Shown here one piece after another: positions 2,242 through 27,964 of a stretch of 40,710 nucleotides of DNA. A program made the translations under genes and the position numbers. Where the stretch lies: positions 1-40,710 of the forward strand of contig JANWZN010000009.1 in assembly GCA_025054575.1 (NCBI GenBank), read 5' to 3'. Each line of letters begins with the position of its first letter. The first letter of the stretch is position 1. The notes beneath the pieces are model-generated. The model was not told the origin of the DNA. It saw nothing but the letters and a program-made list of their open reading frames with translations, and searched no databases. This stretch comes from Geminicoccaceae bacterium (GTDB lineage Bacteria; Pseudomonadota; Alphaproteobacteria; Geminicoccales; Geminicoccaceae).

Positions 2242-3327
2242 TCAATACAATCCCGGCAAGCCCGAGGGGGGCACCACGACCAGAGGCTCGGGGGCCGGCG
2301 CTGGCTCGGCCGTCGGCGGTTCGGGTTCGAGCGGCTCTTCCAGCGGCGCCACGGGCCGCGTTACGCGCACGGGAATACCGCGGCGGGCCACGAGCTCGGC
2401 CTCGACCAGATCCCAATCGACCCGGTCGATCTCGCTCGCGGCCCTGCGCCGGACGAGCGCCAGCACGGCCTCGTCAATGGCACCCGGACGCGGCGTGAAG
2501 GCGTAGGTCTCTTCGAGTTCCTCGAGCTGACCGAAATCGGGGTGTGCTTCGAGATAGAGCTCGCCCTCGTGCCAGCCGACCTTCACTTGCTGCTCGACGA
2601 CCGTCACCCGCGTGCCGATCGGCACCTCCTCGAAGAGGCGCTCGACCGCCGCGGGATACATGCGGATGCAGCCTCGGCTCACCCGCCGGCCGACGCCGTA
2701 GGGCTTGTTGGTACCGTGGATCAGATAGGTCGGCCAGCCGAGATAGAGGGCGTGCCGGCCGAGCGGGTTGTCCGGGCCCGGCGGGACCACGGGCGGGAGT
2801 TCCGGCCGGTCGGCGCGGGTGCTCGCGGTCGGGTACCAGGTCGGGTCTTTTTGCTTGCGGACCACCCGCGTCTCGCCCACGGGCGTATCGAAACCCTCGC
2901 GGCCGACCCCGATCGCGTGTCGGCGCACGGGCCCGCCGCGCGGGAACCAGTAGAGGCCGAGCTCGGCCTTGTTGATGACGATGCCCTCGCGCGGGCCCTC
3001 CGGCAACAGATGCGCCTTGGGCAGCAAGATCAGCCGATCCGCGCCCGGGATCCAGGGATCGACCCCGGGGTTGGCGGCCGAGATCGCGAGGATGCCGACA
3101 TCGTTGGCCACCGCGATGTCGAGCAACGTGTCGGCGTGCTCGGTGAGGTGCCAGCGCAGCGCGCCGATCAGGTCGCCGGTCCGGCGATCCTGGGCCACGG
3201 GCGCACGCGCTCGCGCCGCCAGGCCGAGGGCGGCGAGACCCAGGAGCAGCGAACGGCGGGCGAGCACAGCGGGGCCGAGCGCGCGATCGAGCCCCGGCCC
3301 GGTCGAGCCGGGGCTCGATCTCCTCAA
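2242..3327 (-). CDS. L,D-transpeptidase (YkuD) with LysM domain, ErfK/YbiS type
   Basis: Periplasmic cysteine transpeptidase of 361 residues. After a hydrophobic export signal (RRSLLLGLAALG) comes a LysM-like peptidoglycan-binding region (about residues 55-110, ending RLILLPK). The YkuD catalytic domain has His in IHGTNKPYG (H204) and the nucleophile in SRGCIRM (C220). The Pro-rich tail (about 320-361) is probably disordered. In E. coli the ErfK/YbiS/YcfS relatives attach the C-terminal Lys of Braun lipoprotein to meso-diaminopimelate. Here the gene lies four bases downstream of an OprI/Lpp-like lipoprotein gene, which strongly suggests the same job. Start choice is uncertain: TTG at 3327 gives the longest form, while GTG at 3267 would leave a short n-region directly before the signal helix. 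Confidence 0.9.
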   Translation of the reverse strand: MRRSSPGSTGPGLDRALGPAVLARRSLLLGLAALGLAARARAPVAQDRRTGDLIGALRWHLTEHADTLLDIAVANDVGILAISAANPGVDPWIPGADRLILLPKAHLLPEGPREGIVINKAELGLYWFPRGGPVRRHAIGVGREGFDTPVGETRVVRKQKDPTWYPTASTRADRPELPPVVPPGPDNPLGRHALYLGWPTYLIHGTNKPYGVGRRVSRGCIRMYPAAVERLFEEVPIGTRVTVVEQQVKVGWHEGELYLEAHPDFGQLEELEETYAFTPRPGAIDEAVLALVRRRAASEIDRVDWDLVEAELVARRGIPVRVTRPVAPLEEPLEPEPPTAEPAPAPEPLVVVPPSGLPGLY

Positions 3328-3331
3328 GAGA

Positions 3332-3586
3332 TCACTTGCGCAGGCCAGCGCGGAAGATCCGGTCGGCCTTCTCGCCGGCGATCTGCGCGTCCTGCGCCGC
3401 CCGCTGGGCGTCGGCTGCCGCCTGGCGCGAATTGGCCTCGGCCGCGGCTGCCTTCTGCTCGGCGCTCTGGGCGATCGCCCGGACCCCGGCGATCTCCTGC
3501 CGCAGGGTCTCGATGTCGCCCTTAGTGGCGCAGCCGCCCAGCAGAACGAGCGGGGCAGCGGCCGCGAGCAGTGCGATCCTCTTCAT
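3332..3586 (-). CDS. Lpp/OprI-like outer-membrane lipoprotein
   Basis: Small lipoprotein of 84 residues. The signal peptide ends in the lipobox LGGC, with Cys19 as the lipidated residue. The mature chain of 66 residues is almost entirely Ala-rich helix with a heptad-like pattern of Ala, Gln and Lys, typical of the trimeric coiled coil ('alanine zipper') of OprI and Braun lipoprotein. It ends in GLRK, and a C-terminal Lys is the residue that L,D-transpeptidases join to peptidoglycan in Lpp. OprI of Pseudomonas has nearly the same length and also ends in Arg-Lys. The ATG has a strong GGAGGAGG site. Genes for YkuD transpeptidases lie on both sides in the same orientation. Covalent anchoring is inferred, not shown. 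Confidence 0.88.
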   Translation of the reverse strand: MKRIALLAAAAPLVLLGGCATKGDIETLRQEIAGVRAIAQSAEQKAAAAEANSRQAAADAQRAAQDAQIAGEKADRIFRAGLRK

Positions 3587-3656
3587 CGTGCTTCCTCCTC
3601 CTTCGATGATGATCGTCGAGACGGACCGGATCGCGCGGGAGCCCGCCGCGACCCAC

Positions 3657-4160
3657 TCAGGGATGGATGTCGATGGGCGTGCCGGGAACGACGCTCGCCC
3701 ACAAGATGTCCATCTCTTCGTCGGTCACGGCGATACAGCCGCGGGTCCAATTGAACAACCAGTGATCTCTGCGGAATTGCCTCGCGATCGCCGGGTCGAG
3801 CCCGTGGATCATGATGTCGCCCCCGGGCCGCACGCCCAGCCGGCGCGCGCGTTCGCGATCCTGCTCGTTCGGGTAGGAGATCCGGATCGCCTTGTAATAG
3901 TAGCTGTTGGGCACGAAGTCCGAGAGTTCGTAACGTCCCTCCGGCGTCCGCCCGTCGCCCTCGCGGACCTTGTGTCCCTCCGGCCGGCGACCGAGCGCCA
4001 CGCGGCAGCTCCAGACCACGCGGTCCTCGACGATCAGCTCCAGCACCCGGGCCCGCTTCTTGACCTCGACCCGCTCGACGCGCGGCAGCCCCGCGACCGC
4101 GGAAGCGGGCGCGACCAGGGTCGAAGCGAGCAGCGGCAGGAGCGCGCGGCGCGTCGGCAT
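3657..4160 (-). CDS. L,D-transpeptidase (YkuD), short form
   Basis: A second YkuD-domain protein, 167 residues from the ATG at 4160. A weak signal sequence (LLPLLASTLVAPASAVAG) is followed directly by the catalytic domain, without LysM. Catalytic residues are His in IMIHG (H119) and Cys in NWTRGCIAV (C142). The Trp-Thr-x-Gly-Cys-Ile-Ala form of the motif is typical of the short 'murein L,D-transpeptidase' subgroup, whereas the neighbouring transpeptidase has the SRGCIRM form. The frame stays open far upstream, but the homology and signal begin at 4160. It lies 70 bases upstream of the Lpp-like gene and 68 bases downstream of a phosphoesterase gene, all on the same strand. It could make 3-3 crosslinks, attach the lipoprotein or trim stem peptides. 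Confidence 0.9.
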   Translation of the reverse strand: MPTRRALLPLLASTLVAPASAVAGLPRVERVEVKKRARVLELIVEDRVVWSCRVALGRRPEGHKVREGDGRTPEGRYELSDFVPNSYYYKAIRISYPNEQDRERARRLGVRPGGDIMIHGLDPAIARQFRRDHWLFNWTRGCIAVTDEEMDILWASVVPGTPIDIHP

Positions 4161-8703: not shown

Positions 8704-8733
8704 CGGGGCCCCTCGCGGGCCCCGTCATCGTTT
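8704..8733 (+). terminator. Rho-independent terminator after glnA
   Basis: A perfect 8-bp stem (8704-8711 with 8717-8724, CGGGGCCC/GGGCCCCG) with a 5-base loop lies 24 bases after the glnA stop and is followed by TCATCGTTTT. The T-tract is short and interrupted, so strength is uncertain. The minus-strand pilus operon ends just beyond it. Confidence 0.65.
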
Positions 8734-9177
8734 TCTGCGCGCGATCGGCCCCGGCAAGAGGCGGAGGCTGACGGGCAGCTGGTCGACATACTGGCCCTCG
8801 AGGACCGCCCGCTGGCGGGGGATCAGCCCGTAGACGGTGAGCCGCGTCGGCCGGCGGCCGTCGTTCTCGGCCTCGACCGCTGCCCCCTCCCGCCCGCCGT
8901 CGCCCCACGGACGGCGATGGCCCGGATCGGCGTAGAGCCGATAGCGCAGTCTTCCGCCCGCAGGGCCGACGAGCTCGCGTTCGGGGCCGCCCGGGATCGC
9001 CACCGCGAAGCTGGTCGGCCGATCGCAGCGGACGACGATTTCACCCTTGCCGAAGCTCTTGCGGGACAGATCGATCCGGCCGAAGGCGACCGGGCGGACG
9101 TCGACCGAGCAGTCGGCGGCGATCGCCGGCGTTGCGGCCAGAAGGACGATCAGCGCAGCGAGCCGCCACCGGATCAT
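8725..9177 (-). CDS. Csu-type pilus subunit (spore coat U domain), terminal gene
   Basis: Secreted single-domain protein of 150 residues with a Sec signal (LAALIVLLAATPAIAA). It is related to the spore-coat-U/CsuA-B family of archaic chaperone-usher subunits: an early Cys (ADCSVDV), a second Cys after about 30 residues (VVRCDRP), and a late YVDQLPVSL strand like the YSDTITIT of CsuA/B. The ATG at 9177 overlaps the usher stop as ATGA, so translation is coupled; a GTG two codons upstream is an alternative. In Acinetobacter the last gene, csuE, encodes a longer two-domain tip adhesin. This one is too short for two domains, so it is either a minor pilin or a reduced tip subunit. Confidence 0.8.
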   Translation of the reverse strand: MIRWRLAALIVLLAATPAIAADCSVDVRPVAFGRIDLSRKSFGKGEIVVRCDRPTSFAVAIPGGPERELVGPAGGRLRYRLYADPGHRRPWGDGGREGAAVEAENDGRRPTRLTVYGLIPRQRAVLEGQYVDQLPVSLRLLPGPIARRKR

Positions 9178-11882
9178 CGGCACGCGATGGTCCCGAGATC
9201 GGGCAGGAGCTCGCCCTCGGCGCCGGCCGGGAGCGCGCAGCGCACGATGGCGCCGGCAGCGAGCCGAGCCTGGAGCTCGACCGGTCGGTCGAGCGGCCCC
9301 TCGACCTGGGCGAAGCCGTCCCGGCCGAGGAGGGCGGTGGTCGTGCCGTCGGCGCTCGCGAGCTCGAGCCCGGCCGGCAGCGGGCGGCCGTCGGGCCCGC
9401 GCAGGATCGCGGTCGCCTGGCGTCGCCGGTCGACGGGAAAGCCGATGCGGACCCCGCTGCGGTCGTAGGGCACGGCTGCGACCTCGGTCTTGGCGATACC
9501 CGCTTCGAGCGGCAGATCGTCGAGTTCGAGGCGGACCTTGTTGACCTCGTAAGGCCGCAGACCGGGCAGCAGGAGCTTGCCGTCGGCATCGGTCCGGCCG
9601 ACCTCGCGATTGTCGAGGTACACTCGAACGTTGGGGAAGCCGGGGACGTCGACGAGGCCGAAGGCCTGCCCCAACCGGCGCGAAGCGCGCAGCGTGCCGT
9701 CGACCAGTGCCAAGCTGCCCTCGACCCCGAGGCGGGCCCGGTTCTCCTCGTCGAAGCGCTCGGCATCGAGCGCGACCGCGCCGAGGCTGCCCTGGTAGCT
9801 CACGCGCGCATCGTAGCTGCGGGGCGCATCGCCCACCTCGGCAGCCAGGCGCACATCGAAGCCGAGATCGGAAGCGCCGCGGGTCCGGCGATATTGGATG
9901 CGGCCGTTCTGGCGCTCGTCGCGCAGCCGCGCCTCGGCCGTCACGCTGCTCTGCGGGCCGAGCGGGACGGTGTAGATCGCGGTCACGGCCAGGTCCCGAT
10001 CCGGCCGTATGGTCTGGCCGGCATTCACGAGCAGGGTGCCCGGTCCGATCGGGAGCGACCAGGAGGCGGCCGCGATCGTTCGATCCTCGCGACCCTCGTT
10101 GTCCTCGTTGGCGAGCAGAAGGCCCAGTCGGCCGACGGCGCCGAGATCGACGCCGAGATTGACCTGGTCGACGCGCCGGGTGTCGGCGCGGCCCCCGAGC
10201 TCGCGCCAGTCATCGCTCGTCAGGCGGGTGCGGGCGCCGAAGCTCCAATCCCGGCCGAGATATTCGTAGGCGAGCTGGCCCATGAGGCCCGGCCCGTCGT
10301 CGGCGTCGTGGCTGGCGCCGAGCCCGGCCGTGAGCGTGCCCCACAAGCCCAGGCGCAGAGCACCGCCCAGAACGAGACCCTGGCGCTCGGCCTGGACGAC
10401 GGCGCGGACCTCGCCCGTGAGCTCGTCGGTGAGCCCGTAACGATGGGTTGCGGAGAGCAGCGCATCGCCGTAGCGGAAGCTCTCGCGGCCGTAGCGGCGG
10501 CGCTCGAAGCCCGCCTCGTAAGAATAGTCGTGCAGGCCGGCCTTGAGGTTGCGCGCACTCACGTAATAGGGCTGGGTGACGATCCGCTCGCGGCCCAGCA
10601 GATCGGTGACGCGGAGCTGAACCTCGCCGGCCCCGGTCACGACCGGCAGGTTCTGGAAGCGGAACGGTCCCGGCGGCAGCTCACCGGTCGAGCGCTTGAG
10701 ATTGTCGATGAAGACCTCGACGACCGAGGATTGCTCGACCAGGCCGCCGATCGCCGGCAGGGGGAAGGTGACGAAGCCCGGGTCGGTGGCGAAGTTGGTG
10801 GCCCACTGGAGGCCGCCGAAGCGAACCGGTGCCGCGAAGCTCCCTGCGCCAGTGAGGCTGTCGCCGATCCGCAAGGACGCTCGCCATTCCGGAAAATCCT
10901 TGGTGAACCGGCTCTCGAGGCGGATCGCCTCGGGATCGTCGAGGAGATCGTCGAAGAGCGCGCTCGTCGTGAGCACGCCCGGAGGGCCGAACAGGCCGAG
11001 CTCGACGAGCCCGTCGATCCGCTCCTCGACCCCCTGACCCACGGTCGCGAGCAGATCGTAGTCGAGAAAGGCGCCGACGCCCGTCGAGGGCGGTGGCCCC
11101 GGCTCCGGACCCTCCTCGAGCGCGAAGGTCTCGAACGCCTCGGCCGGGAGGTCGAGGGCGAGCGTCAGCGCCTCGCGATCGAGCAGGACGCGGGTGGCAC
11201 CCAGTCGGTCTAGCGGCACGAACGGCTCGCCCTGGAGGGTGAGCACGTCCGCAGGATCGATCCGCACCCGCCAGAGCCGGAGCTGGGCGACGGCCAAGGC
11301 GAGTCGGCCGCTCCCCGGCTCTTCGGCGACCAGGCTACCCGGCGACACCTCCTGGCCGTTCAGGGTCACGGCCAACACCCACTCGCGCCAGCCCTCCTCG
11401 GTCAGCGGCGGCTCGATCGGGTCGCGGCGCAGCTCGCGGCGCGGCGGCACGAGCGGACCCGGCTCGCCGACCGGCGGGGTGACGAGCGCTCCCGGCGGCG
11501 GCAAAGGCAGCCGGCTGCGGCGCAGCGCCGGTGCTGCGGGCACCGGGTGATGCTCGGTCGGCGCGCTGGTCGCGGCGGGTGCGGGCGGCGTCGCGTCGGG
11601 CGCCGCCTCCTCCGCCGAAGACGCGGCAGGCTCTTGGGGTACCGATGGTACGGCGGTCGGTCCGGCCGCAGCACGCTCCGGCAACGGAACCGCCCCGTCT
11701 CCCTGGCGGTTGGCGACGATTAGGCGCAGCAAGCGCGCGTCGGCCGGTGTGGCAGTTCCGCTCGCGCGCTCCAGCGCGTCCTCGGGGCCGCTCGCCGACA
11801 GCCCGGACCAGAGGGCGAACAGGCCGGCCGCTCCCGCGAGGCTAGCCGCCCTGAAGGGGGACGACGAGGTCGAGATCGCCAA
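9174..11882 (-). CDS. Outer-membrane usher, FimD/CsuD type, with long Pro-rich N-terminal extension
   Basis: Pilus assembly usher of about 900 residues. The N-terminal domain begins near residue 164 (WREWVLAVTLNGQEV) and is followed by a barrel with usher landmarks such as LGDSLTGAGSF-like RIGDSLTGAGSF, FPLPAIGG, VEVFIDN, GPFRFQNLPVV and QPYYVSARNL. The plug and C-terminal domains follow (NVRVYLDN, LPGLRPYEVNKV). Before this is an unusual stretch of about 130 residues rich in Pro, Ala and Glu after a hydrophobic segment (LAGAAGLFALWSGL). The start is uncertain: I chose TTG at 11882, which overlaps the chaperone gene by 41 bases, because no ATG or GTG lies suitably close to the hydrophobic segment. 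Ends in a final Cys pair region. Confidence 0.85.
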   Translation of the reverse strand: MAISTSSSPFRAASLAGAAGLFALWSGLSASGPEDALERASGTATPADARLLRLIVANRQGDGAVPLPERAAAGPTAVPSVPQEPAASSAEEAAPDATPPAPAATSAPTEHHPVPAAPALRRSRLPLPPPGALVTPPVGEPGPLVPPRRELRRDPIEPPLTEEGWREWVLAVTLNGQEVSPGSLVAEEPGSGRLALAVAQLRLWRVRIDPADVLTLQGEPFVPLDRLGATRVLLDREALTLALDLPAEAFETFALEEGPEPGPPPSTGVGAFLDYDLLATVGQGVEERIDGLVELGLFGPPGVLTTSALFDDLLDDPEAIRLESRFTKDFPEWRASLRIGDSLTGAGSFAAPVRFGGLQWATNFATDPGFVTFPLPAIGGLVEQSSVVEVFIDNLKRSTGELPPGPFRFQNLPVVTGAGEVQLRVTDLLGRERIVTQPYYVSARNLKAGLHDYSYEAGFERRRYGRESFRYGDALLSATHRYGLTDELTGEVRAVVQAERQGLVLGGALRLGLWGTLTAGLGASHDADDGPGLMGQLAYEYLGRDWSFGARTRLTSDDWRELGGRADTRRVDQVNLGVDLGAVGRLGLLLANEDNEGREDRTIAAASWSLPIGPGTLLVNAGQTIRPDRDLAVTAIYTVPLGPQSSVTAEARLRDERQNGRIQYRRTRGASDLGFDVRLAAEVGDAPRSYDARVSYQGSLGAVALDAERFDEENRARLGVEGSLALVDGTLRASRRLGQAFGLVDVPGFPNVRVYLDNREVGRTDADGKLLLPGLRPYEVNKVRLELDDLPLEAGIAKTEVAAVPYDRSGVRIGFPVDRRRQATAILRGPDGRPLPAGLELASADGTTTALLGRDGFAQVEGPLDRPVELQARLAAGAIVRCALPAGAEGELLPDLGTIACR

Positions 11883-12552
11883 GGTTGGTCTCGGCGCGCA
11901 GGGCCAAGGCGCGCGTGCCGTCGAGCCGGAGCCCGGCCAACGACCAGCGATGCGAACGGCCGGCCAGCACATAGGTCGGGCCGTCGCCGACCGGCACGGC
12001 ACGGCCGCCCAGAACGAGCTCGAGACGGCGGACGTGGAGGTGGGCGCGACCACCGTTCGCGACGACCAGGCTCGGGCCGTCGGCGCCGCGCTCGGCCGTC
12101 CACCGCGGCTCGGCGCGGGCATCGGGCGGGGTCACGAACACCGGCAGGCTGATTCGCAACGCCAGACGGACACCCCCCGCGCCCTCGGTCTGCGGTACCT
12201 CCGTGACCAGGACACGATAGGTCTCTTCCACCGCCGGCGGCTCGGTGCTGCGGCGCGCCACGCGAACGATCTGCCGCTCGCCCGCTGCCAGTCGGACCAT
12301 CGGTGGGACCGCGACGATCGCCCTGGTCGGCTCGAGCTCCTCGCTCGCCGGGCCGGACCGCCAGGCGAAGGTCTCGACCTGCAGCAAGAGCGGCGCGTCG
12401 CCGTCGTTGGTGACCGTAAGGGCGGCTGCCGGTCGGCCGGGCACCAGCTCGAGCCGGGTGGGCGAGACCCCGAGGGTCGCCGCCCAGGGCCCTTCGCCCG
12501 AGACGTTCGAGACGACCACGAGCCCGACTAGAAGAAACCGGCACCACCGCAT
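11842..12552 (-). CDS. Periplasmic pilus chaperone (PapD/CsuC type)
   Basis: Fimbrial chaperone of 236 residues. It starts MRWCRFLLVGLVVVSNVSG, an export signal. The first immunoglobulin-like domain has SPTRLELVPGRPAAALTVTN-type strands, then VETFAWR and the subunit-binding G1 region VPPMVRLAAGERQIVRVARR, which ends in the conserved basic residue. The second domain includes LPVFVTPPDA and LVVANGGRAHLHVRRL. The family donates a strand to pilins to stop premature folding and delivers them to the usher. The gene lies 8 bases after the pilin gene and overlaps the usher. The true start was placed at the ATG at 12552 because the frame upstream overlaps the pilin gene. Confidence 0.9.
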   Translation of the reverse strand: MRWCRFLLVGLVVVSNVSGEGPWAATLGVSPTRLELVPGRPAAALTVTNDGDAPLLLQVETFAWRSGPASEELEPTRAIVAVPPMVRLAAGERQIVRVARRSTEPPAVEETYRVLVTEVPQTEGAGGVRLALRISLPVFVTPPDARAEPRWTAERGADGPSLVVANGGRAHLHVRRLELVLGGRAVPVGDGPTYVLAGRSHRWSLAGLRLDGTRALALRAETNLGDLDLVVPLQGG

Positions 12553-12560
12553 GGCGCGGC

Positions 12561-13061
12561 TCAAAAGCGAAGGGTGATCGTGATCGTGTCGCTGTAGCTG
12601 CCCGGCGGAACCGATTGGTTTCTCGGGATCCGGCCGTAGACGGGCACCGAGCCGTTGCCGGCCGCGAGGAGCTGCTGCGCGTTGGCCTCGCTTCCCGATC
12701 CCCACCTGAGGGTACGACCTGCGTTCCGGAAAATCTCGTAGACGAGGAAGTTGCTACCGGACCTCATCCGTCGCTGGGTACCATTCGCGTTCTGCCCGTT
12801 GTCGAGCTCGAAGGTGAGCGTACCGGTCGGGCAGTTCGTGTAGTCGATCTGCCCCTGGGCATCGAGATCGGTCGACTGTCCGGAGCCGTAGGCCCTGAAC
12901 GCCAGGGTACCGCCCGAGATCGAGCAACTGCTCTCGACGGTCGCCGTGACCGTCAAGGTTCCGGTCACCGTCTGCGTCTGCGTCTGGGCCGCGGCCGTAA
13001 AAGCGCACGCCCAGCTCGCCACGAGCCCTGCCGCGGCGATCCCGATCCTCCTCCGAGCCAT
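12561..13061 (-). CDS. Major pilin, spore coat U domain (CsuA/B-like)
   Basis: Secreted pilin of 166 residues. The signal peptide (IGIAAAGLVASWACAFTAAAQ) is followed by Thr-rich strands and the SCPU core: VESSCSISGGTLAF, a second Cys in YTNCPTG, and the C-terminal YSDTITITLRF, the classic ending of CsuA/B-like subunits. Two Cys can form the subunit disulfide. The ATG has a GGGAG site about 9 bases upstream. It is the first gene of a four-gene set (pilin, chaperone, usher, second subunit) whose homologues build thin archaic chaperone-usher pili used in attachment and biofilm formation. Confidence 0.88.
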   Translation of the reverse strand: MARRRIGIAAAGLVASWACAFTAAAQTQTQTVTGTLTVTATVESSCSISGGTLAFRAYGSGQSTDLDAQGQIDYTNCPTGTLTFELDNGQNANGTQRRMRSGSNFLVYEIFRNAGRTLRWGSGSEANAQQLLAAGNGSVPVYGRIPRNQSVPPGSYSDTITITLRF

Positions 13062-13131
13062 GATCCTGTCTCCCTTCGCGTTGCGTTGGCGAGGGCTCGA
13101 CGTTCCTTGGTCGCGCAAGGCGACGCCCGCG

Positions 13132-13160
13132 AAGATACCTTTATGGTTGAGCAAAATCAA
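13132..13160 (-). promoter_or_regulatory. Candidate sigma-70 promoter of the pilus operon
   Basis: On the minus strand TTGATT (13160-13155) and TATCTT (13137-13132) are separated by 17 bases in an AT-rich island unusual for this GC-rich window. Transcription would start near 13125, about 65 bases before the pilin start. The -35 element lies inside the last codons of the upstream kinase gene. No mapping data. Confidence 0.4.
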
Positions 13161-14835
13161 GGATACTCTCGCTTTGGGAGAGACGCTCTGGCCGCGCGTG
13201 CCGCTCGACCGCCGCCGCGAGGCTCGCGCCGTCGATCGGCTTGGTGAGACAGCCGTCCATGCCGGCCGCCCGACAACGCTGCTCGTCGCCAGGCATCGCA
13301 TTGGCGGTCACCGCGACCACCGGGACGCGGGCCTTGCCAAGATCGGGCAGGGCGCGGATCCGCCGGGTCGTCTCGAGCCCGTCGAGCCCCGGCATCTGCA
13401 TGTCCATGAGCACGAGGTCGAAGGGCTCGGCGGCCAGGCGAGCGAGCGCCGCCTCGCCGCTCTGCACGCTCGCGACACGGTGACCGGCGCGCTCGAGCAG
13501 CAAGCCGAGCAGCCTGCAGTTGAGGGGATTGTCGTCGACCACGAGGATCCGCAGCGCCGGTCCGCCTCGCTCGACCAGGCTGTGGCGGGTCACGATCGCA
13601 GAGGGTGGCCCGCCGCGCAGCGCCCGCAGGCAGGCCATCAAGGTCTCGGCTGCGAGCGGCTTTTCGAGATAGGCAGCGAACCCGGCCGCTTCGGCTCGCC
13701 GCGCGTCGCCTCGCAGACCGGCCGGTGCGGCGAGCACGAGGCGGGTTGCGGCCAGTGCCGGCGCGTTGCGGATCCGTTGGGCGAGCTCGGCCGGCTCGGG
13801 GTCGCGGAGTTGGGCGTCGATCAAGGCGAGATCGAAGGGCGATCCCCGGTCGGCCGCCTCGTTGAGGAGCGCCAGCGCCTCCCGCCCGGTGGCCGCGGTC
13901 CGCACGGTCATGCCCCACAGACTCGCGAGATCGCGCATCGCGGTGCGGGTGCGCTCGAGCGGGTCGGCGATCAAGAGCTGAGCGCCGGCAAGCGCTGGAG
14001 CAATTTCCGATTGAGTACCGGCTCGTCCGACCGGCAGGCCGACCGGCAGCGCGATTGAGAAGGTCGTCCCGACACCCGGCCGGCTCGTGCAAGCGAGCGT
14101 GCCCCCCATCGCCTCGACGATCCGGCGTGCCAGAACGAGCCCGAGGCCGCTCCCACCATAGAGCCGCCCAGTCGCGGCCGAGGCCTGCGCCCAGGGTCGG
14201 AACAGCCGCGCCAGCTCGGCTTCGCCGATGCCGGGCCCGGTATCGGTTACCGAGAGCAGGAGCAGGACGTCGCGCTGCCCGAGCGTGCGCGCACGGATCG
14301 CCAGGCCGACGCGGCCGCGCTCGGTGAACTTCACCGCGTTGCCGAGCAGGTTGAGGAGGACCTGCCGGAGCCTGCCCGGATCGACCAGCACGCGTTCGGG
14401 CACCGAGCGATCGACCGCCAGCTCGACGGTCAGGCCCTTCTGCCGAGCGCGCGGCGCGACCAGGGCGACCACCCGCTCGACGAACGGCCGCGGCGCGACC
14501 TCGACCGGCGCGAGCTCGAGCCGGCCGGCGTCGATCCGCGAGAGATCGAGAACGTCGTTGACGAGCGTCAAGAGCGCTTCGCCGGAGTCGAGGATCGCCT
14601 CGAGATAGCCACGCTGCTCGGCGTCGAGCGGGGTGTCGCGCAAGAGCCGCCCCATGCCGAGCACGCCGTTCAAGGGCTCGCGCAGCTCGTGGCTCATCGT
14701 CGCGAGGAAATCGGCGCGCGCTCGCGCGACCGCCTCGGCCCGCCGAGCGCGCCGGCGCAGACAAGAGCGCTCACGCCGCACGATGCGCTCGCGGCGCGCC
14801 GTGCCGTCCCCGTTCCCGCCCCTCGCCCCGGTCAT
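13141..14835 (-). CDS. Hybrid sensor histidine kinase with two receiver domains
   Basis: Cytoplasmic hybrid histidine kinase of 564 residues. There is no membrane segment or PAS sensor: after about 40 basic residues comes the dimerisation/phosphoacceptor helix with H49 in ATMSHELREPLNG. The ATPase domain has an N box (LLNLLGNAVKFTE) and glycine boxes (VTDTGPGIG, GSGLGLVLARR). Two receiver domains follow. The first (about residues 285-400) is divergent, with IADPLE in place of the usual acidic pair and a candidate Asp in FDLALIDAQ. The second is canonical (LVVDDNP, LVLMDMQMPG, LTKPI). The ATG at 14835 has a strong AGGAGA site. It lies 79 bases upstream of the pilus operon in the same orientation, so control of pilus production is plausible but unproven. 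No Hpt domain is present. Confidence 0.9.
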   Translation of the reverse strand: MTGARGGNGDGTARRERIVRRERSCLRRRARRAEAVARARADFLATMSHELREPLNGVLGMGRLLRDTPLDAEQRGYLEAILDSGEALLTLVNDVLDLSRIDAGRLELAPVEVAPRPFVERVVALVAPRARQKGLTVELAVDRSVPERVLVDPGRLRQVLLNLLGNAVKFTERGRVGLAIRARTLGQRDVLLLLSVTDTGPGIGEAELARLFRPWAQASAATGRLYGGSGLGLVLARRIVEAMGGTLACTSRPGVGTTFSIALPVGLPVGRAGTQSEIAPALAGAQLLIADPLERTRTAMRDLASLWGMTVRTAATGREALALLNEAADRGSPFDLALIDAQLRDPEPAELAQRIRNAPALAATRLVLAAPAGLRGDARRAEAAGFAAYLEKPLAAETLMACLRALRGGPPSAIVTRHSLVERGGPALRILVVDDNPLNCRLLGLLLERAGHRVASVQSGEAALARLAAEPFDLVLMDMQMPGLDGLETTRRIRALPDLGKARVPVVAVTANAMPGDEQRCRAAGMDGCLTKPIDGASLAAAVERHARPERLSQSESILDFAQP

Positions 14836-16820: not shown

Positions 16821-17002
16821 GTCGTCCCCCTGACCTCGTCCCAACCCGCGCGCCCACCGCGCCCGCGACAAGAGGTAGCGCAGCGAGGCCCCGGCGGATA
16901 GATCGAAGCGTGCGCCGGGTCGATAGCGGGGAATGCCGAGGGGGGACATGCGCCTGGCGCAGAGCTCGCCCTCGGGCTGTCGACCAGCGCTGCGAGGAGG
17001 CG

Positions 17003-18760
17003 ATGCCGGTGTTGGAGACGATCCGGATCGACGGCTCCACGGGTGAAGGCGGCGGCCAGATCTTGCGCACGGCGCTGGCCGTAGCCGCCCTCGCCGCACG
17101 GCCGGTCGAGATCGTACGCATCCGCGAGAGACGGCCGATCCCGGGCCTCGCGGCCCAGCACCTGACCGCCGTGCGCGCGCTCGCCGCCTTGTGCGACGCT
17201 TCGCTCGAGGGCGATGCGCTCGGCTCGCGCGAGCTCCTGTTCGCGCCGCGCGGGCCGGTCCGTGCGGGCAGCTACACGATCGACGTGGGTGCGGCGCGCA
17301 AAGGCGGCAGCGCCGGGGCCGTTTCCTTGGTCCTCCAGGCGATCGCCGTACCCCTGGCACTCGCCCGCGGCAGCTCCGAGCTGCGCCTTTTCGGTGGGAC
17401 GCACGTCCCGTGGAGCCCGAGCTTCGACTATCTCGCCGAGGTCTGGGCCCCCACCCTCGCCCGGACCGGCCTCGCGATCGGCCTCGAGCTCGAGATCTCC
17501 GGCTGGTTTCCGGTCGGACGTGGTGCCGTGCGGGCGCGAATCGAAGGGCGTGCCGGCGCACCACCCTCCCCCGTCTCGCTCATTGAGCGGCCGCCGCTCG
17601 GGCGGATCGAGGGGCATGCGCTCGCCGCCAACCTACCGGCCGAGATCCCCCAGCGGATCGCCGACCGTGCTCGCAAGCTGCTCGAGCCCACCGGTGTGCC
17701 GCTCGCCATCCGGCCCGAACGGGTCAAAGCCGCCTCGCCAGGTGCGGCCTTGTGTCTGGTCGCGCATCACGATACCTGGCGGGCGGGGTTCGATTCCCTG
17801 GGCGCGCCGGGCAAGGCGTCGGAGGTGGTCGCCGAGGAAGCCGCCCACGCCCTGCTCGCGTTCGAGGCCGGCACCGCCGCGCTCGACCGGCACCTGGCCG
17901 ATCAGCTTCTTCTTCCGCTCGCGCTCGCTTCGGGACCCTCGCGCTTCACCACCGAGACGGCGACCGGCCATCTCGAGACCTGCGCCTGGCTCTTGGCCGA
18001 GCTCGGCGTCGCCCGTGTGGTGCTCGAGCCCCGGCCCGAGGGTGGTGTACTCGTCACCGTCGAGCCTCGCGGTCTCGCGATCCCGCACGGCGAGCCCCGC
18101 AGCACCCCGCACGTCCGCGCCGCCCAACCGGAGCCCGACGAGGGCGAGCGCGTGCCCCGACGGCGGGAGCATCGCGCCGCTGTCGAGGTCGGCGCGAGCC
18201 ACGGGCCCCCGCCTCCCGCCCCGATCCCCTGGAACCTGGTCGCGACCGTGCACGCCCAAGCCTGGCGCGAGGCGCTCGGGGTCCTCGGCCGTTACGGGAA
18301 GGTCCGCAAGACCCCCTACTACAACGTCGTCGTGATGGCGGTGGACGATCCGAGAGCCGTGGCCGAAGACCTCGCGCGGCGGATCGCGGCCGAGCCAGGG
18401 CTCATGAACTTCATCTCTCGCGTCGTGCCGCTCGATGCGGCCCTCGAGCTCGGTCCGCTCGAACAGGCCGAAGAGCGCCTGTTCGCGGCCTTCCTCCCGT
18501 TCCTGCCGCGCCTGGCCGGCAAGACCTTCCATGTGCGCGTGCACAAGCGCGGGCCCGGCAAGGCCCTCTCGGCGCACGCGCTCGAACGTGCGCTGGGCGA
18601 GCGGCTGCTGCGGGCGCTCGAGGCCGCCGGCACGCCCGGCCGCCTCGCCTTCGACGATGTCGATCTGATCCTGGTCGTCGAGATCGTCGACCAGCGCGCA
18701 GGTATCGCCGCATTCGATCGCGACGATCGCGCCCGCTTCCCGTTCCTGCGGCTCGATTGA
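17003..18760 (+). CDS. rtcA: RNA 3'-terminal phosphate cyclase fused to TAN1-like THUMP domain
   Basis: One uninterrupted frame of 585 residues with two RNA-related modules. Residues 1 to about 350 are RtcA, which converts an RNA 3'-phosphate to a 2',3'-cyclic phosphate through a covalent His-AMP. The motifs GEGGGQILR (14-22), HLTAVRAL, GGSAGAVSLVLQ and the nucleophile in DRHLADQLLLPLA (H297) are intact. A Pro/Arg-rich linker covers about 355-407. Residues 408-585 resemble the TAN1/archaeal THUMP family: NLVATVHAQAWREAL, then NFISRVVPLDA, then the THUMP core KTFHVRVHKRGPGK (from 507) and DDVDLILVVEIVDQRAGI. THUMP domains bind tRNA acceptor regions. E. coli RtcA has about 338 residues. The start is ATG 17003, but AGGAGG is only 2 bases upstream; GTG at 17009 has better spacing. 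Confidence 0.88.
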   Translation: MPVLETIRIDGSTGEGGGQILRTALAVAALAARPVEIVRIRERRPIPGLAAQHLTAVRALAALCDASLEGDALGSRELLFAPRGPVRAGSYTIDVGAARKGGSAGAVSLVLQAIAVPLALARGSSELRLFGGTHVPWSPSFDYLAEVWAPTLARTGLAIGLELEISGWFPVGRGAVRARIEGRAGAPPSPVSLIERPPLGRIEGHALAANLPAEIPQRIADRARKLLEPTGVPLAIRPERVKAASPGAALCLVAHHDTWRAGFDSLGAPGKASEVVAEEAAHALLAFEAGTAALDRHLADQLLLPLALASGPSRFTTETATGHLETCAWLLAELGVARVVLEPRPEGGVLVTVEPRGLAIPHGEPRSTPHVRAAQPEPDEGERVPRRREHRAAVEVGASHGPPPPAPIPWNLVATVHAQAWREALGVLGRYGKVRKTPYYNVVVMAVDDPRAVAEDLARRIAAEPGLMNFISRVVPLDAALELGPLEQAEERLFAAFLPFLPRLAGKTFHVRVHKRGPGKALSAHALERALGERLLRALEAAGTPGRLAFDDVDLILVVEIVDQRAGIAAFDRDDRARFPFLRLD

Positions 18761-26890: not shown

Positions 26891-27964
26891 ATGAGGACGG
26901 AACGGACGTCGGGCGCGAGCAAACGGTTGCTCGGCGGCACTGCGCTCGCCTCGGGGTTGCTGCTCGCATCGGGCGGGCCCGTCCTCGCCCAGTTGGGCCC
27001 CGCGGTCGGCCCGGGCGGCAAGCTCGATATCACCGTGGGCGGGTTCGCAAAGTTCTACTGGGTCGTGGGCGATGTCGCCAACCGCTTCGGCGGGCGTCAA
27101 TCGAGCTCGGACTTCCGCAACGACACCGAGGTCCACGTCAAGATCCAGGGCAAGGATGCCGCAACCGGCATCGTCTACGGCGCGGTCGTCGAGTTCGAGG
27201 CCGACACCAACCGTACCCTCAACACCGACGAAACCTATGTCTTCCTGCGCGGTGCCTTCGGTGATGTTCAGTTCGGCGACGATGACGGCATCGCCAAGGA
27301 CTTCGCGATCGGCGCCCACAAGGTGGCGGTCGCTACCGGCGGTCTCGACGGCGAGGCCGGCATCGACAATGCCGACACGATCTACCTCAGAGCACCCAAC
27401 AACGACGCCACCAAGATCAAGTACAAGTCCCCGACGCTCGCGGGTTTCCAGTTGGGCGCGAGCTACACGCCGAGCCCGGCGAGCGAGGGCGACAATCTCG
27501 CGGTGACGAACGCCGATGGCCTCGAGGACGTCATCGAGGGCGCTCTGCAATGGTCCGGCACCTTCGGCGAGATCGGGCTGCAGGCCAGCGTGGTCGGCGC
27601 CTACGCCCGGGAAGATTCGGGTAACGATACCTACAAAGGCTTTTACGTCGGAGGCAAGCTCAGCGCGTTCGGCTTTGCGATCGCCGGTGGTTGGGGCACC
27701 GAGGACAGCCCGCTGACCGGTGACCGCGATTTCGCCAATATCGGTGCCTCCGCATCCGTCGGGCCTGTCGGCATCTCGGTCAACTACGGCAATGCCTACG
27801 ACACCGACGGGGCCGAGCCGCGAGCCCTGATCCTGGGCGCCGATGTCGGCGTCTTCCCCGGCTTGGCGCTCGGGCTCGAAGTGTCGTTTTTCGACCAGAA
27901 GCGGCCCGGCGATCGCGACGACGACGGCGTGCTCGGGCTCACGAGCCTGCGGCTCGCGTTCTGA
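26891..27964 (+). CDS. General outer-membrane porin
   Basis: Porin of 357 residues. A signal peptide (LLGGTALASGLLLASGGPVLAQ) is followed by amphipathic beta strands alternating with polar turns (LDITVGGFAKFYWVVGD, TEVHVKIQGKD, VVEFEADTNRT). The external loop TDETYVFLRGAFGDVQFGDDDG is the constriction-loop style block seen in alphaproteobacterial porins of the Gram-negative porin family. The chain ends in LRLAF, with the terminal Phe required for barrel assembly. The ATG has GGGAGAG upstream. The 195-base gap before it should hold the promoter, but I cannot point to clear elements. Confidence 0.93.
   Translation: MRTERTSGASKRLLGGTALASGLLLASGGPVLAQLGPAVGPGGKLDITVGGFAKFYWVVGDVANRFGGRQSSSDFRNDTEVHVKIQGKDAATGIVYGAVVEFEADTNRTLNTDETYVFLRGAFGDVQFGDDDGIAKDFAIGAHKVAVATGGLDGEAGIDNADTIYLRAPNNDATKIKYKSPTLAGFQLGASYTPSPASEGDNLAVTNADGLEDVIEGALQWSGTFGEIGLQASVVGAYAREDSGNDTYKGFYVGGKLSAFGFAIAGGWGTEDSPLTGDRDFANIGASASVGPVGISVNYGNAYDTDGAEPRALILGADVGVFPGLALGLEVSFFDQKRPGDRDDDGVLGLTSLRLAF

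Follow-up and report, generated by a model that had tools for sequence, protein, structure and literature searches.

The window, by which we mean the whole stretch of 40,710 nucleotides that was analysed, corresponds to one contig of 40.7 kb (C429) in an assembly of 3.55 Mb that is 95.9% complete, and the nearest named relatives of its genome are Geminicoccaceae bacteria, e.g., KatS3mg117 (AP024683.1), which places the host among the alphaproteobacteria. The initial annotation had placed three open reading frames on one strand at this locus, and all three are found there, on the minus strand, in the transcription order short YkuD gene, lipoprotein gene, LysM-YkuD gene (Table 1). The first two genes are separated by 70 bp, while the gap between the second and the third measures 4 or 64 bp, according to whether the LysM-YkuD gene starts with TTG at 3327 (as listed) or with GTG at 3267 (likelier by inspection).

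Table 1. Genes and features of the locus, with the evidence for each assignment.
Feature	Position	Strand	Basis
Short YkuD gene, DpaA/YafK-type, 167 aa	3657..4160	-	Family models, motifs, profiles
Lpp/OprI-type alanine-zipper lipoprotein, 84 aa	3332..3586	-	NF040598 and PF11839 matches
Lipoprotein signal peptide and lipobox LGGC	3530..3586	-	Sequence
Predicted attachment site, C-terminal Arg83-Lys84 of the lipoprotein	3335..3340	-	Lys conservation in relatives
LdtA/B/C/E-type L,D-transpeptidase: LysM-like unit, YkuD domain, helical C-terminal part	2242..3267	-	Family models, motif, structure model
LysM-like N-terminal unit of the transpeptidase	3013..3165	-	Secondary structure of the model; full-length match to 4lzh
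16-bp G+C-rich hairpin, without a T run, directly after the lipoprotein stop codon	3285..3320	-	Folding z-score

The length of the lipoprotein, its lipobox and its C-terminal Arg-Lys are all as originally described (the C-terminus reads ...GLRK). The protein passes the model NF040598, 'Lpp/OprI family alanine-zipper lipoprotein' (50.9 bits against a cut-off of 43), as well as Pfam PF11839 (32.5 bits against 23.1), and exhibits a heptad-like Ala pattern; a profile comparison with E. coli Lpp structures gives a weak hit (1jcc, E 4e-4). Judged by the two models, it belongs to the Lpp/OprI family, and the window genome contains only this one match of the type. The mature protein comprises 66 residues, from the predicted lipidated Cys19 (codon 3532..3530) to Lys84; the residue at +2 is Ala, with no Asp inner-membrane retention signal, and +2 Asp was found in none of 88 distinct relatives. 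The initial annotation had regarded absence of Lys from the C-terminus of orthologues as evidence against tethering. Among the relatives, which come from alpha-, gamma- and other proteobacteria, Lys is terminal in 86 of the 88 distinct mature lipoproteins, a figure somewhat favoured by the collecting profile, which spans the C-terminal region, while the position of the stop codon is independent of it. The two without a terminal Lys belong to Azospirillum brasilense (RKTRS) and to one member of the family (G026, ALRQ). The A. brasilense lipoprotein (L081:3624-3884) lies beside an L,D-transpeptidase (LDT) gene and ends in ...SQRKTRS, with the Lys internal.

Both flanking proteins pass the YkuD cut-off of 23.4 bits, with scores of 83.0 and 65.7 bits. 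The LysM-YkuD protein carries the motif VSRGCIRM, of the SXGChR type (catalytic Cys codon 2670..2668), in which Cys and Arg are invariant in 12 and 21 relatives. Its residues 47-327 align with almost all of the LdtE model NF047955 (E 3e-52), the best NCBIfam match, at a score under the equivalog cut-off. Another two LDT models of the E. coli type match nearly the whole protein, likewise under their equivalog cut-offs. No Pfam match to LysM was obtained for this protein; however, its structure model (mean pLDDT 88) contains a beta-alpha-alpha-beta N-terminal unit, and the best solved structural match is the full-length K. pneumoniae L,D-transpeptidase 4lzh (35% identity, TM 0.71/0.85, 290 columns). 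Hence, given this match and the LdtE alignment, the original 'LysM-YkuD' label holds. The family models and the motif assign the protein as a full-length LdtA/B/C/E-type transpeptidase, which we do not call LdtE itself because it scores below the NF047955 equivalog cut-off. The window genome encodes four YkuD proteins in total, including the linked short YkuD as its only DpaA-like protein. Since the two YkuD proteins encoded outside the locus are long and, by inspection, YcbB-like (motifs LSHGCVRV and FSHGCMRV), the linked LDT is the sole candidate of the anchoring lineage in this genome. The LDT tree groups the Geminicoccaceae sequences in a single clade (16 rows, support 100/98) within a mainly alphaproteobacterial part, which suggests a single origin of the three-gene arrangement. 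We also considered acquisition of the gene set from gammaproteobacteria; the position of the Geminicoccaceae clade among alphaproteobacteria gives no sign of a recent transfer.

A survey of the neighbourhood, proposed together with the initial annotation, showed that 21 of the 31 family genomes preserve the three-gene order on a single strand. In a further genome (G002) the three genes lie together in a different orientation, and in another (G019) the lipoprotein match sits on a separate contig. Per-gene profiles revealed that 23 of the 31 genomes possess all three genes and 7 possess none, while one (G026) retains only a lipoprotein homologue; Fisher tests that ignore kinship gave P values of 3e-6 for lipoprotein versus LDT and 1e-7 for LDT versus the DpaA-like gene. 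The homologue in G026 (G026:C1:1414117-1414317; L210, L025) ends in Gln, and no YkuD domain was detectable in this genome (5.4 Mb, 3 contigs, 98% complete). Such an ending is what would be expected if Lys serves only as an LDT substrate, although this is a single case. The genome thus constitutes a natural control, having a lipoprotein without the terminal Lys and no detectable YkuD gene.

We extended the counts to 387 evenly drawn alphaproteobacterial genomes, taking E below 1e-6 as a clear lipoprotein match. Clear lipoproteins were present in 29 genomes from 17 families, and an LdtA/B/C/E-type LDT accompanied them in 29 of 29, versus 17 of the 358 other genomes, although these genome counts are not phylogenetically independent. 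The two genes lie within 1 kb of each other in 27 of the 29 genomes, the exceptions being G110 and G407, the latter with its lipoprotein gene at the end of a contig. Another six, weak lipoprotein matches also adjoin an LDT gene, while the remaining weak ones (E above 7e-6, without LDT) are probably due to chance. Eleven LDT-positive genomes (G036, G043, G090, G146, G228, G236, G269, G297, G335, G360 and G378) gave no lipoprotein match; they would contain either divergent lipoproteins or other LDT substrates. The pair is convergent in many alpha- and gammaproteobacteria and co-directional in Geminicoccaceae, and many gammaproteobacteria have the two genes as neighbours, including E. coli with lpp-ldtE. 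A plasmid search for named alphaproteobacterial copies returned mostly Azospirillum sequences and enteric LDTs and brought nothing new. Since 21 of the 31 family genomes share the trio in this order and the lipoprotein-LDT adjacency recurs across the class, the arrangement is more than a chance one. The remark in the initial annotation that such a set is notable for the lineage is justified with respect to the class, in which Lpp is mostly reported missing, but the set is not peculiar to this lineage: neighbouring lipoprotein and LDT genes are found in no fewer than 17 families of alphaproteobacteria as well as in many gammaproteobacteria.

The short YkuD enzyme differs from its neighbour at the active site. 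Its motif is WTRGCIAV (TRGCIA; catalytic Cys142, codon 3737..3735), and the Ala at Cys+2 is invariant in 16 and 19 relatives. According to previous studies, an Arg two residues past the Cys marks transpeptidases, while Ala or Asn there marks DpaA-like proteins (PMC8263019), and a difference of the S-x-G-C-I-R versus T-x-G-C-I-A type splits LD-transpeptidases from DpaA-like hydrolases (PMC8263019, PMC10434034). Moreover, in the profile alignment Lys64, invariant in the family, corresponds to DpaA Lys83, which is essential for DpaA activity (PMC10653827), and Met117 corresponds to DpaA Met133, at a position that is Met, Leu or Val across the family and Trp in carboxypeptidases. The enzyme misses the cut-off of the DpaA/YafK model NF040599 (38.9 versus 365 bits, partial match), and DpaA Tyr131 of loop L3, an important residue in E. 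coli, is not kept: it is replaced by Asp115, at a position that is variable in the family (aligned by eye via the conserved IHG motif). For these two reasons we describe the protein as DpaA-like and do not file it as DpaA. The initial annotation had envisaged a substrate with one or two attaching enzymes; the LysM-YkuD protein remains the likely attacher, but the short YkuD, with Ala two residues after the Cys and the DpaA-type Lys and Met, does not, and we rejected on the motifs the possibility that both enzymes attach. We consider it more likely that the short YkuD, judged by these residues, releases the lipoprotein by hydrolysis rather than attaches it.

The best-surviving alternative, which we regard as unlikely while giving it real weight, is that the short YkuD acts as an L,D-carboxypeptidase, converting tetrapeptides to tripeptides and so limiting the acyl-donor pool, rather than as an amidase releasing the lipoprotein. 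Ala at Cys+2 is also found in L,D-carboxypeptidases and, like the active-site Lys, is common to Csd6 and Pgp2, and the missing Tyr131 fits this explanation as well. Structural comparisons lean slightly the same way but separate the two kinds of enzyme poorly: Foldseek places Bd1075, Pgp2 and Csd6 a little ahead of DpaA, with carboxypeptidases and DpaA close together, and DpaA is not among the 50 matches listed by VIA-align. In a profile search of the PDB, however, DpaA (8ikr) is the top match (E 5e-16) and L,D-carboxypeptidases follow at E 7e-7 or weaker, so the sequence profile favours DpaA by nine orders of magnitude, and, like DpaA, the family has no Trp at the D-Ala-pocket position but Met, Leu or Val. 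In the Limibaculum order, all 41 of 41 genomes contain relatives of the short enzyme, although 100 of the 101 sampled lack a clear lipoprotein match, which argues for the carboxypeptidase and means that other substrates are possible. Within Geminicoccaceae, by contrast, the short YkuD and the LDT are present or absent together in 31 of 31 genomes, and G026 is the only genome in which the short YkuD and the lipoprotein do not coincide.

Taken together, the sequence families, motifs, conservation, co-inheritance and linkage, which are observed directly, lead us to propose with a probability of roughly 0.77 that the three genes encode a Braun/OprI-type outer-membrane tether with its own attaching and probably its own releasing enzyme. 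The core of the initial annotation, a linked tethering set of substrate and attaching enzyme, is likely to be correct in view of the family models, motifs, co-inheritance and terminal Lys. From these features we infer covalent attachment and assign each enzyme to a step as follows. After lipidation at Cys19, the lipoprotein would be delivered to the outer membrane and folded as an alanine-zipper coiled coil, probably a trimer, with a length close to the depth of the periplasm, so presenting its C-terminal Arg-Lys. The LysM-YkuD enzyme would take a tetrapeptide stem, form a thioester with diaminopimelate under release of D-Ala and link the stem, via meso-diaminopimelate, to the terminal Lys at its side chain. 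As a DpaA-type amidase, the short YkuD could cut this bond again, making the degree of tethering adjustable.

Adjacency alone is no proof of attachment, because LdtE, although encoded by a convergent neighbour of lpp in E. coli, is reported to make 3-3 cross-links (PMC8263019). A second alternative is accordingly that the LysM-YkuD protein is a cross-linker like E. coli LdtE, with the lipoprotein free or attached by another enzyme, and the LdtE model is indeed its best NCBIfam match; anchoring and cross-linking LDTs, moreover, do not form separate lineages (PMC10434034). We nonetheless hold this explanation to be improbable: the genome has no other LdtA/B/C-type enzyme, while its two YcbB-like proteins could perform cross-linking; the presence of the LDT tracks the lipoprotein across the class; the Lys is lost in G026, where no YkuD gene was detected; and LdtPae2, a P. 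aeruginosa enzyme belonging to the same lineage, is the one that anchors OprI (PMC10434034). The least probable alternative, to which we assign very little weight, is a lipoprotein that is not covalently bound and acts as a free spacer or LDT partner, as proposed for R. sphaeroides DalA, which lies beside two predicted LDT genes and is reported to bind peptidoglycan non-covalently (PMC10470522), but the window lipoprotein passes the Lpp/OprI model and has a terminal Lys that is nearly universal in its relatives, while the Limibaculum-order locus that we take for the DalA locus encodes an unrelated, longer lipoprotein without a terminal Lys.

The hairpin after the lipoprotein gene is strong, with a z-score of -3.1 in the window. 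Six relatives were examined for it, and five of them have one with z-scores from -3 to -5.6, L031 being the exception. In several relatives the hairpins are similar while their sequences are unrelated. Tentatively, the hairpin may serve as a transcript 3' end or stabiliser, letting the lipoprotein outnumber the LDT. Elsewhere in the window we noted by eye what looks like a chaperone-usher-type fimbrial cluster (8725-13301, minus strand), comprising an usher-like 982-aa ORF (9174..12122), a chaperone-like ORF and small secreted subunits, as well as an ORF similar to RNA 3'-terminal phosphate cyclase (RtcA; 16910-18760, plus strand). A porin-like ORF (26891-27964, plus strand) has the likely mature N-terminus LGPAVGPGG..., without the Ala-Asp start reported for barrel tethers.

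In a published survey of DpaA, Lpp (PF04728) was confined to part of the Gammaproteobacteria (PMC8263019), and Lpp is stated or implied to be missing from most or from the studied alphaproteobacteria (PMC8263019, PMC10470522, PMC10787603), with homologues reported absent from R. sphaeroides and from Brucella and its relatives. The absence from most of the class agrees with our counts (29 of 387 genomes with a clear match). The occurrence of the OprI-type (PF11839/NF040598) lipoprotein with its LDT in so many families suggests that the survey overlooked it by relying on a single Pfam model. We found no literature on the gene set in Geminicoccaceae, and no paper on an OprI-type lipoprotein with an LDT in alphaproteobacteria in a search that left most subscription journals outside; priority is thus uncertain, and the NCBI model NF040598 already covers such lipoproteins. 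Each part is of a known kind, and what appears to be new is the compact, co-inherited unit and the tether in at least 17 alphaproteobacterial families. Alphaproteobacteria have mostly been treated as Lpp-free and barrel-tethered. The unit offers a compact set of substrate, writer and likely eraser for studying the control of tether density. We speculate, with somewhat less than even confidence, that terminal-Lys Braun-type tethering arose early in Proteobacteria and has been retained by a scattering of alphaproteobacterial families, becoming a single co-inherited attach-and-release unit in Geminicoccaceae, and that the rest of the class dispensed with it or turned to barrel tethers, loss of the LDT being followed by loss of the terminal Lys.

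Among known systems, the barrel tethers of Brucella and Agrobacterium come from the same bacterial class and, like the proposed tether, are covalent links between outer membrane and peptidoglycan made by LDTs, but there the N-terminus of a beta-barrel is attached (Ala-Asp motif), without Lpp (PMC10787603, PMC11527210). The R. sphaeroides DalA locus is similar in having an alphaproteobacterial lipoprotein gene beside YkuD genes, and Tri-Lys-Arg falls in the dalA mutant (PMC10470522); DalA was concluded to bind non-covalently, in an assay with C-terminal tags, whereas covalent binding is proposed for the window lipoprotein. In the Limibaculum order, taken to include Rhodobacterales, a DpaA-like YkuD gene is often found beside a gene for a ~165-aa lipoprotein (CAP-domain-like by eye) and a YkuD gene with SSNGCIGL (L155, L162, L167, L170, L173 and L174), an arrangement that is probably the DalA locus. 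Given its place between two predicted LDT genes and the fall of Tri-Lys-Arg in its mutant, DalA was also considered as an orthologue of the window lipoprotein and rejected: among 101 genomes of the order only the centre genome gave a strong match, and the ~165-aa lipoprotein adjoining the DpaA-like gene there, if indeed DalA, is unrelated.

The closest parallels are found in Gammaproteobacteria. E. coli LdtA, LdtB and LdtC anchor Lpp, and DpaA releases it (PMC8263019); the window set resembles this system in lipoprotein type, attachment residue and enzyme families (PMC8263019, PMC10653827). E. coli lpp also adjoins an LDT gene, ldtE, but the two are convergent, while the window genes share one strand, and only ldtE is reported as a neighbour of lpp, neither the anchoring enzymes nor dpaA. 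The window lipoprotein matches PF11839 and not PF04728, and with 66 mature residues it is longer than E. coli Lpp, the mature form of which has 58. In P. aeruginosa, LdtPae2 anchors OprI via Tri->Lys-Arg, with LdtPae3 (SXGChA) put forward as the releasing enzyme (PMC10434034). The window trio is composed likewise, with an Lpp/OprI-family lipoprotein that ends in Arg-Lys, one counterpart of the anchoring SXGChR enzyme and one of the SXGChA enzyme. However, the P. aeruginosa genes, which are gammaproteobacterial, are not described as one cluster, whereas those of the window form a compact, co-directional and co-inherited alphaproteobacterial trio.
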